Source of the DNA: Guyparkeria hydrothermalis
GTDB taxonomy: Bacteria; Pseudomonadota; Gammaproteobacteria; Halothiobacillales; Halothiobacillaceae
Reading direction: 5' to 3'
Length of the DNA: 64,000 bases
Assembly (NCBI RefSeq): GCF_023555375.1
Contig: NZ_JAJSEE010000005.1
Coordinates: 62,001-126,000, forward strand
In this document: piece by piece, positions 21,061 to 25,672 of the stretch
Layout of the letters: each line of letters begins with the position of its first letter
How positions within the stretch are numbered: position 1 is the stretch's first letter
The notes under the pieces: generated by a model
The model's input: the letters and a program-made list of their open reading frames with translations, nothing else
Told to the model about the DNA's origin: nothing
The model's database searches: none
Made by a program: the position numbers and the translations under genes

Positions 21061-21315
21061 ATGGAAGTCCTGTTTCTGTTCGTGCCGCTGAGCATGCTGG
21101 TGGTCGCCGGGCTGGTCTGGGCCGCGTTCTGGGCGATCCGGAACAACCAGTACGAGGACCTGGAGGGGCCGGCGCATCGCATTCTCATGGACGATGACGA
21201 TCCGAAGATTCCGACCAACCAGGCCACCGAAGAGGCGGATGAGCCCGACGCCGAGGGCGCAGGCCGAACGCGTCAAGAAACGGCGGGGAAATCACCGCGT
21301 TCCGGTGAGGAATAA
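21061..21315 (+). CDS. ccoS: cbb3-type cytochrome oxidase assembly protein CcoS
   Basis: An 84-residue small membrane protein. A single TM helix (about residues 4-27) starts immediately after MEVLFLFVPLSMLVV, followed by AIRNNQYEDLEGPAHRILMD, the diagnostic CcoS sequence (YDDLEGPAxRIL in family members). CcoS is needed to insert haem/copper cofactors into the cbb3 oxidase (family knowledge). The C-terminal tail is long and acidic. ccoS normally sits at the end of ccoGHIS; here no cco genes are adjacent, so it is an isolated copy. CGGAG lies 5-9 bp before the ATG. A 33-codon membrane peptide gene follows 69 bp later. Confidence 0.88.
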   Translation: MEVLFLFVPLSMLVVAGLVWAAFWAIRNNQYEDLEGPAHRILMDDDDPKIPTNQATEEADEPDAEGAGRTRQETAGKSPRSGEE

Positions 21316-21609: not shown

Positions 21610-22515
21610 TCAGGCCGGCTGGGGCAGGGCGGTGCGCAGCTTCTTGAGGGCGGCCGTCTCGATCTGGCGGATTCGCTCGGCCGAGACGCCGTACTCGTCG
21701 GCCAGGGTCTGCAGGGTGGCCTTGGGCTCGTCGAGCCAGCGGCGGGAGAGGATATCCCGGCTGCGGTCGTCGAGCATCGAGAGCGCGGCGGTCATCGCCT
21801 CGACGCGGTCGTCCTCGTCGCGCTGGGAGGCGATGTCCTCGACCGACAGGGCGTCCTGGTCGACCAGGATCTGCTCGTAGGACGGGCCGTCGCCATCTTC
21901 CGAGCCGTCGTAGGCCGGGGTGTCGAGGCCCATGTCGCGCCCGTAGAGGCGCGCCTCCATGGTCATGACCTCGCGCTCGGGGACGTCGAGCTCCTCGGCG
22001 ACCGCCTCGGCCTCCGACTTGGAGAGCCAGCCGATCGAGTTCTTCATCTGGCGCATCTTGAAGAACAGCTTGCGCTGCGCCTTGGTGGTGGCCACCTTGA
22101 CGATGCGCCAGTTCTTGAGGATGTACTCGTGGATCTCGGCCCGGATCCAGTGCACCGCGAAGGTCACCAGGCGCACCTTCTGGTCCGGGTCGAAGCGCTT
22201 GACCGCCTTCATCAGGCCGATGTTGCCTTCCTGGATCAGATCGGCCAGCGGCAGCCCGTAGCCCCGGTAGCCCCGGGCGACATGCACGACGAAACGCAGG
22301 TGACCGAGGACGAGCTTCTGTGCCGCCTCGATATCACCGGTTTCCTTCAGCCGCCGGCCCAGCGCCTGTTCCTCCTCGACGGAGATGACGGGCAGACGGC
22401 GCACCTCGTTGAGGTACTGCGACAGCGAATCGCCCATGACCGGCATGGTCATGCCGGCTGACGGGGTCAGGCCCCGCGATTTGCTGTCGATCATCTGGTT
22501 GCTTGCTGTCTGCAT
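21610..22515 (-). CDS. rpoH: RNA polymerase heat-shock sigma factor sigma32
   Basis: A 301-residue sigma factor of the RpoH class. Region 1.2/2 includes LSQYLNEVRRLPVIS, LVLGHLRFVVHVARGYRGYG and LADLIQEGNIGLMKAVKRFD, and region 2.4 contains TFAVHWIRAEIHEYI. The RpoH box QRKLFFKMRQ, which distinguishes sigma32 from sigma70 and sigmaS, follows. Region 4 ends with the helix-turn-helix LQTLADEYGVSAERIRQIE. ATG 22515 (MQTASNQM) is chosen because upstream codons run into the promoter and operator region. A perfect CIRCE operator lies 54-80 bp upstream of this start, suggesting HrcA repression. The gene is downstream of ftsX in the common ftsYEX-rpoH order but has its own promoter region. Confidence 0.96.
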   Translation of the reverse strand: MQTASNQMIDSKSRGLTPSAGMTMPVMGDSLSQYLNEVRRLPVISVEEEQALGRRLKETGDIEAAQKLVLGHLRFVVHVARGYRGYGLPLADLIQEGNIGLMKAVKRFDPDQKVRLVTFAVHWIRAEIHEYILKNWRIVKVATTKAQRKLFFKMRQMKNSIGWLSKSEAEAVAEELDVPEREVMTMEARLYGRDMGLDTPAYDGSEDGDGPSYEQILVDQDALSVEDIASQRDEDDRVEAMTAALSMLDDRSRDILSRRWLDEPKATLQTLADEYGVSAERIRQIETAALKKLRTALPQPA

Positions 22516-22568
22516 GCTGTCGTTCTCGCCTCGCTGCAAGTATCCCAATCGTCTCGTGAACCCGTATT

Positions 22569-22595
22569 TTAGCACTCGCGATATGAGAGTGCTAA
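22569..22595 (-). promoter_or_regulatory. CIRCE operator (HrcA site) upstream of rpoH
   Basis: TTAGCACTC-N9-GAGTGCTAA is a letter-perfect CIRCE element (9+9+9). On the minus strand a possible -35 (TTGTCC) lies 17 bp before TATCGC, which falls in the CIRCE spacer; the same stretch also reads as a weak sigma32-like promoter (CTTGTCC, then TCTCATAT). Binding of HrcA would therefore cover the rpoH promoter. hrcA itself is not in the window. Confidence 0.88.
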
Positions 22596-22659
22596 ACCCG
22601 GGACAAGTTCCCCTCGCCCCTGCTCAGAGTGAAAAGACTAATGCACCAATCGAAAAAAA

Positions 22660-23622
22660 TCATGGAGTGCTCAGCCGGCCGATGTAGAAGCGACCGATGA
22701 CTTGCGCGGACAGCCACCCGAGCAGGGCCCCGGCGGTCATCAGTAGCAGCACCAGCGTCGGGTCGATTTGCGGCGAGATCGCCGCGCCGTAGGAGGCGGC
22801 AAAGCGCTCGATCGGGCCGGCGGTCACCGAGACCGCCAGGGCGACCAGGCCGCTTGCCACAAGACCGCCCAGCAACCCCGTCAGCGTGCCGTCGTAGAGC
22901 AGGGGGCGCAGCATGTAGCGCTCGGTCCCACCGATCAGGGCGATCAGGGCGATCTCGCGGCGACGCTCGTGCAGCTCGAGGCGCAGGGTGTTGCCGACCA
23001 CGAACACCACGGTCAGCCCCAGCAGGATCAGGAGCCACCAGCCGAGTTCGTCGAAGAAGGCGCGGATCTGCTCGAGGCGTTCGATCCATTCGCCCCCGGA
23101 GGAGAACTCGGCGACGGCCGACTGCTCGCGCAGCCCCTCGGCCAGCGCCAGGCGCGTGTCCGGGCGGGCGTCGCTCAAGGTCAGTTCGATGACCCAGGGC
23201 AGCGGATTCGAATCCAGACCCTCCAAGCCATCCATGTGCAGGCGTTCGGTCAGCGTCTCGAGGCCCTCCTCGGGCGGGATGACACGCTGTTCGGCCACGG
23301 TCGCCTGTCTGTCCAGCCAGTCGCGCAGCGATTGTCGCTCGGCCTCGTCCGTTCCCGGGGCGAGGTAGAGATCCATGCGAGCGGCATCGCTCATCCAGAT
23401 GGCGCCCAATCGCTCGACCTGGTGGCCCAGGGTCATCACCAGGGCGGGCAGGCTGAGCACCACGCCCAGCACCAGGATGGTGGCCCAGGCCCCCACCGGG
23501 CGGCGGATCAGCCGTGCCAGTGCGCCCCGCAGGCACTGGCGGTGGTGCCGACGCCAGGCGGCCAGCGGGTGGCGGCTCTTCTCGCGGGTGCCACGGGTCT
23601 CGTGGTGGGCCGGCGCGCTCAT
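22660..23622 (-). CDS. ftsX: Cell division protein FtsX
   Basis: A 320-residue permease-like partner of FtsE. Together they regulate peptidoglycan amidases at the septum (EnvC in E. coli). It has a basic cytoplasmic N-terminus, TM1 at about residues 46-68, a periplasmic domain to about 192 (with SNPLPWVIELTLSDARPD) and three C-terminal TM helices. The FtsX-type VGNTLRLELHERRREIALIALIGGT lies just after TM2. The start overlaps the ftsE stop by 4 bp (ATGA), showing translational coupling. A gap of about 140 bp to the rpoH start contains the CIRCE operator. Confidence 0.94.
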   Translation of the reverse strand: MSAPAHHETRGTREKSRHPLAAWRRHHRQCLRGALARLIRRPVGAWATILVLGVVLSLPALVMTLGHQVERLGAIWMSDAARMDLYLAPGTDEAERQSLRDWLDRQATVAEQRVIPPEEGLETLTERLHMDGLEGLDSNPLPWVIELTLSDARPDTRLALAEGLREQSAVAEFSSGGEWIERLEQIRAFFDELGWWLLILLGLTVVFVVGNTLRLELHERRREIALIALIGGTERYMLRPLLYDGTLTGLLGGLVASGLVALAVSVTAGPIERFAASYGAAISPQIDPTLVLLLMTAGALLGWLSAQVIGRFYIGRLSTP

Positions 23623-24290
23623 GACTCGGCCTCCTCGAAGGCGCTGATGCGGCCCTGGTTGAGGGCGATGCGCGGTACCGGGTATTGCTTGAGAAGCTCG
23701 ACGTCGTGACTGGCGATCAGCACGGTGACCCCCACGGCGTGGAACTCGAAGAAGCGGTCGAAGATGTCACGGGACAGGTCGGGGTCGAGGTTGCCGGTCG
23801 GCTCGTCGGCCAGCAGGATGCGTGGCCGGTTGACCAGCGCGCGGGCGATGTTGACCCGCTGCTGTTCACCGCCGGAAAGCTCCTCGATCCGGGCTCGTTG
23901 ACGGCCCAGCAGTCCCACCTTGTCGAGCGCGGCGTCGACGCGGCGGCGAATGTCGCCGGGGAGGTAGCCCGAGACCTGCAGGGGCAGGGCGACGTTGTCG
24001 AACACGAGCCGGTCGGCGAGCAGGTGGTGGTCCTGGAAGACCACGCCGATCTGCCGGCGCAGCTTGGGGTACTGGTGGCGCCCCATCCGGTTCAAGTCAT
24101 AGCCGCCGATCAGCACCTTGCCCGAGGTGGGGCGGTCAAGTGCCGGGATCAGTCGTAGCAGGGTCGACTTGCCGGCGCCGGAATGACCGGTGAGGAACGC
24201 CATGCGCCCGGCCGGCAGACGAAAGCTGATGTCCTGAAGGCCGAACTGCCCGTTGGCGTAGCGACGGGAAACGTTGGCGAACTCAATCAT
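23619..24290 (-). CDS. ftsE: Cell division ATP-binding protein FtsE
   Basis: A 223-residue ABC ATPase. Walker A is GHSGAGKST, the Q-loop is GVVFQDHHLL, the signature is LSGGEQQRVNIARA, Walker B is ILLADEPTGNLD, and the H-loop is IASHDVELL. The FtsE-specific ending includes RIALNQGRI. It pairs with FtsX in the inner membrane and links divisome assembly to wall hydrolysis. ATG 24290 (MIEFANV) matches the usual FtsE start; a GTG four codons upstream is possible. It lies 170 bp downstream of ftsY and probably shares its transcript. Confidence 0.95.
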   Translation of the reverse strand: MIEFANVSRRYANGQFGLQDISFRLPAGRMAFLTGHSGAGKSTLLRLIPALDRPTSGKVLIGGYDLNRMGRHQYPKLRRQIGVVFQDHHLLADRLVFDNVALPLQVSGYLPGDIRRRVDAALDKVGLLGRQRARIEELSGGEQQRVNIARALVNRPRILLADEPTGNLDPDLSRDIFDRFFEFHAVGVTVLIASHDVELLKQYPVPRIALNQGRISAFEEAES

Positions 24291-24460
24291 GGCGGCGGGC
24301 ACCTCGTGGGCCGTTTGATGTTGGTGTCGCCACCTCGTTCGTTTCCCGGCAATCGGCTTGCTCTGTCTGGTCGGTCACGGCGCGGCTCCTTCCACTTTTC
24401 TCGGTTCGCCCGCTCGGTGTTTGGTCGGCGCATTCGCGGTCACGGCTCAGGGCGAAGCGC

Positions 24461-25672
24461 TCAGTCGGCTTGACGGTCGAGCAGCGCGTCGACAAAGGCA
24501 CGCGGCTCGAAGGGGCGCAGGTCCTCGGCTTTCTCGCCAACGCCGATGAAGTGAATCGGCAGGCCGAGTTCGTCGGCGATGGCAAAGACGATGCCGCCCT
24601 TGGCGGTGCCGTCGAGCTTGGTGACGATCAGCCCGGTGAGCTTGACGGCCTGATTGAACTGGCGTGCCTGGACCAGCGCGTTCTGCCCGATGCTGGCATC
24701 AATGACCAGCAGCACCTCGTCCGGCGCCTCGGGTTCAGCCTTGCCGATCACGCGGATCAGCTTGCCCAGTTCGTCCATCAGGCCCGACTGGGTGTGCAGG
24801 CGGCCGGCCGTATCGACGATCAGGATGTCACTGCCGCGCGCCTTGGCCGAGCTGACGGCATCGAAGGCCACCGAGGCCGGATCGCCACGGCCCGGTTCGC
24901 CGATCACGCGGACGTCGTTGCGTTCGCCCCAGCGAATCAGCTGCTCGACGGCGGCGGCGCGGAAGGTATCCGCGGCGGCCAGGGTCACGTCGCGGCCTTC
25001 GGCCTTGAAGCGATGCGCGAGCTTGCCGATGCTGGTGGTCTTGCCGCCGCCGTTGATGCCGCAGACCACCATCACGTGCGGGCGACCCGCCTGGCGACGG
25101 GCCGGCGGTTCGTCGGGCTGCACCGCCTCCAGGCGTTCGATCATCAGGAGGTAGAGGGTCTCGAACAGGTGTTCGGGGTCGTTGACGTGCTTGCGGCTGA
25201 CCTCGTCGGTCAGCTCGTCGATCAGGGCCGCGGTCGTTTTTTGGCCGACGTCGGCCATGATCAGGCGCGTTTCCAGCTCCTCGAGCAGGTCGTCGTCGAT
25301 TCGCTTCTTGCCGAGGAAGAGATCGCCCAGCCCTTCGGTCAGGCCCGAGCGGGTCTTCGCCAGCCGGCTGAACAGCGAGCCAGACTGTTCCGGCGTGGGG
25401 CGCGGGGTCGGAGGCTCGCTCGGGGTGGATGGGGCGGTGTCGGATTCCTGACGCCCCGTGTCCGGCTCCGTGACGGTCAGGTCATTGGCGGGCGTGGCGG
25501 CCGGTTCCTCGTGGATCGGGGGCGGCTCGGCGGGGGTGCCGTGTTCCGAGGCCGGCTCGGGCGGGGTGGGCTCGTCATCGCCGGTCGAGGTCTCGACGGC
25601 GGGCTGGTCGACCTCGCCCTGGCCCTCGGTGGCGTCGTTCTTGCGCTTCTTGCGTCTGAGAAATCCGAACAT
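24461..25672 (-). CDS. ftsY: Signal recognition particle receptor FtsY
   Basis: A 403-residue SRP GTPase that docks ribosome-nascent chains at the membrane. A short basic start (MFGFLRRKKRK) is followed by a long Pro/Glu-rich acidic A-domain to about residue 97, then the N domain (about 105-185) and the G domain. The P-loop is GINGGGKTT at 205-213, followed by DTFRAAAVEQL, the G3 motif DTAGRLHTQ, the G4 motif TKLDGTAKGG and the closing IGVGEKAEDLRPF. Gly replaces the more usual Val or Thr in GxNGxGKTT, which is not expected to abolish function. It is divergent from rsmD with a 180-bp spacer, as in many gammaproteobacteria. Confidence 0.96.
   Translation of the reverse strand: MFGFLRRKKRKNDATEGQGEVDQPAVETSTGDDEPTPPEPASEHGTPAEPPPIHEEPAATPANDLTVTEPDTGRQESDTAPSTPSEPPTPRPTPEQSGSLFSRLAKTRSGLTEGLGDLFLGKKRIDDDLLEELETRLIMADVGQKTTAALIDELTDEVSRKHVNDPEHLFETLYLLMIERLEAVQPDEPPARRQAGRPHVMVVCGINGGGKTTSIGKLAHRFKAEGRDVTLAAADTFRAAAVEQLIRWGERNDVRVIGEPGRGDPASVAFDAVSSAKARGSDILIVDTAGRLHTQSGLMDELGKLIRVIGKAEPEAPDEVLLVIDASIGQNALVQARQFNQAVKLTGLIVTKLDGTAKGGIVFAIADELGLPIHFIGVGEKAEDLRPFEPRAFVDALLDRQAD

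Follow-up and report, generated by a model that had tools for sequence, protein, structure and literature searches.

A putative HrcA operator predicted to form part of the rpoH promoter in Guyparkeria hydrothermalis and other Gammaproteobacteria

The rpoH locus and its closest described counterparts

Two schemes of heat-shock control are usually taught, one relying on sigma-32 (proteobacteria, E. coli) and the other on the repressor HrcA and its operator CIRCE (Gram-positives and others). The sigma-E promoter of E. coli rpoH is named P3. The work of Permina and Gelfand (2003) on HrcA in gammaproteobacteria and RegPrecise may reportedly list rpoH among the HrcA targets; we therefore claim no priority for the link between HrcA and rpoH. 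As an idea, HrcA control of rpoH is already known, since a CIRCE at rpoH was predicted in 2004 for Geobacter sulfurreducens (Rodionov et al. 2004, PMC545781, Table 8). As in the locus described here, an exact CIRCE lies there close upstream of rpoH (at -51), and further CIRCEs occur at groESL and, in that species, at hrcA-grpE-dnaK-dnaJ. It was, however, a single deltaproteobacterial prediction, and an overlap with a promoter is not mentioned in the available parts of that paper (PMC545781). Among the sources consulted in part, it alone reported CIRCE at rpoH, with no such report in the portions seen of PMC10696704, PMC3989490, PMC3135505, PMC9866376, PMC4890791, PMC10490939 and PMC12194929. 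Likewise, no account of an rpoH promoter, sigma-E or sigma-70, that contains an HrcA operator was found in a literature coverage that was mostly at the level of titles and included few subscription journals. In Bacillus and many other bacteria, the same operator and repressor regulate groESL and dnaK; here, in contrast, the target is a sigma factor gene and the operator itself would supply promoter elements.

The window analysed is a stretch of 64,000 nucleotides from G. hydrothermalis, in which the operator and its neighbouring genes are arranged as follows.

21610..22515, minus strand: rpoH, sigma-32, 301 aa (TIGR02392, 384.8 bits, cut-off 323.1; NF005143 above cut-off)
22569..22595, minus strand: CIRCE, putative HrcA operator, exact 9-9-9 palindrome with 0 mismatches
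22595-22587, minus strand: CIRCE left arm, TTAGCACTC
22586-22578, minus strand: CIRCE N9 spacer, TCATATCGC
22577-22569, minus strand: CIRCE right arm, GAGTGCTAA
22660..23622, minus strand: ftsX, the upstream neighbour (best match TIGR00439, 217 bits, below the cut-off of 255)
23619..24302, minus strand: ftsE (TIGR02673, above cut-off)
24461..25672, minus strand: ftsY (TIGR00064, above cut-off)

Because rpoH lies on the minus strand, it reads from 22515 down to 21610, and since ftsX, also on that strand, has its end at 22660, the gene that follows CIRCE is rpoH. The earlier note had described an exact CIRCE 54 bp before the rpoH start. The sequence TTAGCACTC-N9-GAGTGCTAA is indeed present without mismatch at 22569-22595, upstream of the gene as claimed, and the gap to the ATG at 22515 is corrected to 53 bp. 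An alternative upstream start, GTG 22575, would give a 321-aa open reading frame and make part of CIRCE coding; it was rejected because the genus aligns from ATG 22515. The opposite strand carries ccoS, for cbb3 oxidase assembly, past the 3' end of rpoH (window 21061-21315). The order ftsY-ftsE-ftsX-rpoH is that of E. coli, whose strain K-12 carries GAACTT-N16-TCTGA in the ftsX-rpoH gap. Unlike in the present genome, HrcA was not matched in E. coli (one of 14 controls), and the best CIRCE match in its gap has mismatches at 8 of 18 positions.

Within the window, the rpoH site is the only CIRCE match at up to 3 mismatches, and 100 dinucleotide shuffles gave none. The whole genome (2.43 Mb, 9 contigs) holds three CIRCE-like sites at the same threshold, located before rpoH, groES and hrcA with 0, 1 and 2 mismatches, respectively, which makes the rpoH operator the nearest to consensus of the three; a genome-wide control with the reversed pattern returned 0 sites. 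The hrcA gene, which the cascade proposed by the earlier note implies, was found (TIGR00331, 305 bits, cut-off 197), as was rpoE (TIGR02939, 260 bits, cut-off 236). By eye, the frame that follows hrcA resembles grpE.

Predicted promoter elements overlapping the operator

The earlier note had also placed CIRCE over a likely promoter. This was borne out, as the elements below overlap or adjoin the palindrome.

22605..22611, minus strand: sigma-E-type -35, GGAACTT, starting 16 bases before CIRCE
22584..22588, minus strand: sigma-E-type -10, TCTCA, made of the TC of the CIRCE left arm and N9 positions 1-3
22590..22595, minus strand: weak sigma-70-type -35, TTAGCA, the first six CIRCE bases, 4/6 to TTGACA
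22566..22574, minus strand: sigma-70-type extended -10, TGCTAAAAT, the CIRCE right arm plus AAT, hexamer 5/6

A scan for sigma-70 promoters between 22480 and 22800 returned a single one, TTAGCA-N18-TAAAAT with TG (22595-22566), where shuffles average 0.1; the sole sigma-70-like promoter of this region is thus CIRCE itself. Sigma-E promoters follow the layout GGAACTT-N15-17-TCNNA, and the GGAACTT-N16-TCTCA of the window matches this pattern. Across the G. hydrothermalis genome the pattern occurs at 8 sites, against 5 in the control, with no clear overrepresentation. Two of the 8 (L358 and L362) lie upstream of genes for small proteins whose start resembles a signal peptide, one of them glycine-rich; judged by eye, these genes are candidate sigma-E targets. 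Autoregulation of rpoE by sigma-E was considered and rejected, as the 400 bases upstream of rpoE contain neither GGAACTT nor GAAC-N17..19-TCNNA.

To see how general these elements are, we drew 369 class genomes, 345 of which have an RpoH match. The best 150 matches were listed and 146 regions from 90 families retained after removal of four from the own genus, so that this set is non-random; CIRCE was sought within up to 450 bases upstream of rpoH, with less sequence for L226 and L313, which lie at contig ends. The best CIRCE match has 0, 1, 2 or 3 mismatches in 64, 36, 13 and 6 regions, respectively, none has 4-5, and the other 27 have at least 6. CIRCE is thus present at rpoH in 119 of the 146 listed regions, from 74 of the 90 families. 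The comparison set, CIRCEs at groES, came from 70 listed rows (30 loci, the next 20 in order and 20 hand-picked, with some rows passed over in this last step, including genomes that have no HrcA). One row (L349) was too short, and of the 69 scored, 3 of them from the own genus, 64 have a CIRCE.

The two sets differ in the bases that would belong to promoters. Among the 119 listed rpoH CIRCEs, GAAC occupies either of two adjacent offsets in 96 (groES 0/64), A occurs at spacer position 3 in 96, its mirror T in 35 (groES 11/64), T at position +3 in 112, its mirror A in 20 (groES 3/64), and TGnTAnnnT in 110 (groES 3/64). GAAC, the spacer A and the +3 T occur together in 79 of 119 rpoH sites and in 0 of 64 at groES. 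With one listed region per family (n=74), the counts are 57 for GAAC, 57 for the spacer A, 67 for the +3 T and 66 for TGnTAnnnT. The commonest sigma-E-type -10 sequences in the 119 contexts are TCTAA (34), TCTCA (22) and TCTTA (10), and a sigma-E match within 2 of 10 mismatches is found in 102 of the 119, compared with about 6% in shuffles and 2 of 64 unshuffled groES contexts, the shuffles for the sigma scores having been made from the rpoH contexts. These shuffles, like those for sigma-32, TGCTA, the sister-genus motif and the E. coli gap, preserve base composition only. Since the target of HrcA is palindromic, any sequence preference of the repressor should appear in both halves; these signals are unmirrored, hence directional, and look like promoter signals. 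An extended HrcA palindrome as the cause of the spacer A and the +3 T was rejected for the same reason, the mirror positions being far less enriched and the groES CIRCEs having neither base.

The remaining 23 of the 119 contexts have no GAAC at the expected offset. Separately, CIRCEs with altered arms occur at rpoH in L185, L218, L225, L163, L166, L174, L052 and L054 (those named being Luteimonas and Xanthomonas), mostly reading TTAGCAGTC-N9-GA[CGT]TGCTAA or a weaker form; a shift in operator strength or specificity is possible.

Searched as a composite, GGAACT followed by CIRCE (up to 2 mismatches) is found in 146 of the 369 class genomes by tally (145 names in the hand list), and the reversed control gave 0. 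All but one of 30 fetched composite loci precede rpoH, the exception, L139, having no RpoH; chance alone would place some composites at CIRCEs of any kind. Of 80 named RpoH loci forming a second sample, 38 have CIRCE, with GAAC in 17 of these, the spacer A in 24 and the +3 T in 30; the betaproteobacterial loci, judged by eye, show the complete design less often. In a species-weighted draw of the phylum (totals counted by hand), the strict composite was found in 10 of 137 class genomes. RpoH follows 7 of the 11 strict sites on the same strand; at L385 it lies on the other strand, and at L386, L390 and L395 there is none within 1.5 kb. The L390 site (1501-1542) is a perfect GAACT-N10-CIRCE composite. 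Outside the class, a composite was seen in 1 of 261 genomes (G436, reading GATCT, at a locus without RpoH; totals also hand-counted) and was taken as chance. These two samples indicate that the design extends across many families yet is uncommon in species-rich ones.

Co-occurrence of the operator with HrcA

In the family, CIRCE at up to 2 mismatches was found in 17 of 27 genomes, from three genera, and in each of them one site immediately precedes rpoH (14 sites without mismatch, two with 1 and one with 2). HrcA was found in 16 of these genomes, the exception being G025 (95% complete). GAAC (at its expected offset or shifted by one more base), the spacer A, the +3 T and TGnTAnnnT are each present in 17/17, and within the genus the arms are unchanged in 11 of 11 genomes while the spacer varies. 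HrcA was found in none of the 10 genomes of the sister genus, the fourth of the family, and CIRCE at up to 2 mismatches nowhere in them; at the nine rpoH loci found (rpoH was detected in 9/10 genomes), no CIRCE appears even at up to 5 mismatches. GAAC-N17..19-TCNNA is nonetheless kept in 7 of these 9 regions, where shuffles average 0.4. The survey of relatives suggested in the earlier note thus gave an rpoH CIRCE in 17 of 17 CIRCE-bearing family genomes and in 0 of 9 rpoH loci of the sister genus, and its proposal of a single cascade is supported by the presence of hrcA and by the way the rpoH CIRCE tracks HrcA. This co-occurrence makes it very probable that HrcA and sigma-32 belong to a single cascade.

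The class draw agrees. HrcA was found in 268 of the 369 genomes, and the 146 listed regions divide into 110 with CIRCE and HrcA, 9 with CIRCE and without HrcA, 10 with HrcA and without CIRCE, and 17 with neither (Fisher p = 2e-9, uncorrected for relatedness). The 10 HrcA-positive regions without an rpoH CIRCE have no TGCTA and are not explained by the model; six of them fall into f152 and f122 (L220, L230, L251, L281, L282, L301), with three HrcA-positive genomes each and neither CIRCE nor TGCTA upstream of rpoH, possibly a separate rewiring. Among the 17 regions with neither, TGCTA lies within 130 bases in 12, where mononucleotide shuffles average 1.9, and 5 of these 12 read TGCTAT, nearer to the sigma-70 TATAAT and away from the CIRCE arm. 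In G103 and G331, of one family, the palindrome is broken and GAACTT, the -10 and TGCTAAAAT are intact. The simplest history would be that the promoters outlived the operator in lineages without HrcA; we regard this as a lead rather than proof, because the HrcA-less regions are few and some are closely related.

Alternative readings and proposed regulation of rpoH

We propose, with a probability of about three in four, that in the rpoH control region an HrcA operator forms part of the promoter, with sigma-E- and sigma-70-type promoters overlapping it. An unlikely alternative keeps repression by HrcA through CIRCE and takes the sigma-70 extended -10 as the sole real promoter, GGAACTT then marking an activator or another ECF sigma factor. 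The greater conservation of the +3 T over GAAC (112 against 96 of the 119 listed sites) would fit it, as would the TGCTA found in 12 of 17 listed regions without HrcA and CIRCE and the lack of a clear genome-wide enrichment of the sigma-E motif (8 sites against 5 in the control). However, GAAC and the spacer A have the spacing and sequence of a sigma-E promoter, the genome holds rpoE, a comparable motif lies between ftsX and rpoH in E. coli K-12, and 7 of 9 regions of the sister genus retain theirs although CIRCE has gone; in addition, RpoE was found at the rpoH promoter of Vibrio alginolyticus by ChIP, according to the part seen of PMC4890791.

The earlier note had further read a sigma-32-like promoter over CIRCE, adding autoregulation of rpoH to control by HrcA. 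The window does contain CTTG, the start of a sigma-32 -35, inside GGAACTTG, and one of the 119 listed contexts has a sigma-32 match with a single mismatch. The full pattern CTTGAAA-N11-16-CCCCAT, though, is absent from the window, where its best match has 5 of 13 mismatches, and over the 119 contexts sigma-32 scores are at or below those of shuffles while sigma-E matches are strongly enriched. Matches at up to 3 mismatches number 4 of 119 at rpoH vs 29 of 64 at groES. We thus rejected this promoter, and its autoregulation is very improbable.

In other bacteria CIRCE can influence the stability of mRNA, and the palindrome could in principle be a relic or a leader RNA hairpin to which HrcA is irrelevant, as the nine listed CIRCE-positive genomes in which HrcA was not detected might suggest. 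Seven of these assemblies are less than 90% complete, G101 and G120 being about 99%. The constancy of the arms in all 11 genus genomes, set against a variable spacer, together with the association of CIRCE with HrcA, tells against such a role, and the starts predicted from either promoter would omit the left arm, so that no full hairpin would be transcribed. A search for known RNAs between 21500 and 23000 gave no match at the gathering score, and none among the matches listed touches CIRCE. We consider this reading quite improbable.

HrcA control of rpoH, as preferred here, is well supported by sequence comparison. GroEL control of HrcA, by titration, is established for HrcA elsewhere; for this locus we infer binding by HrcA, the use of either promoter, titration by GroEL and cascade behaviour. 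Free GroEL would keep HrcA active, and active HrcA would cover both -10 elements, keeping rpoH off or at a low level. Once GroEL is taken up by unfolded protein, HrcA would come off, allowing basal transcription of rpoH by sigma-70 and, under envelope stress, transcription by sigma-E, and the resulting sigma-32 would drive groESL and other chaperones. Since HrcA would block both sigma-E- and sigma-70-driven transcription, chaperone load and envelope stress would meet at one site. Sigma-E with HrcA at rpoH, and sigma-32 with HrcA at groESL, would be a division that fits a cascade. By eye, a sigma-32-like promoter, CTTGAAA-N14-CCTAAT, runs into the groESL CIRCE (L002, ~140-193), which fits the same scheme.

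The new interest of the locus thus lies in an operator that would double as a promoter, in place of sigma-32 autoregulation. A repressor site on a sigma factor promoter in many gammaproteobacterial families would join components of both schemes. In these families the operator may well be the rpoH promoter, the CIRCE arms bearing the -10 elements of a sigma-E and a sigma-70 promoter, with one repressor responsive to GroEL load gating both inputs to sigma-32, and the E. coli design may be a remnant left after loss of HrcA, with relics in other HrcA-less lineages; we lean somewhat towards this wider reading. It makes a testable claim on how cytoplasmic chaperone load and envelope stress may be combined, and on what enteric bacteria would have lost.
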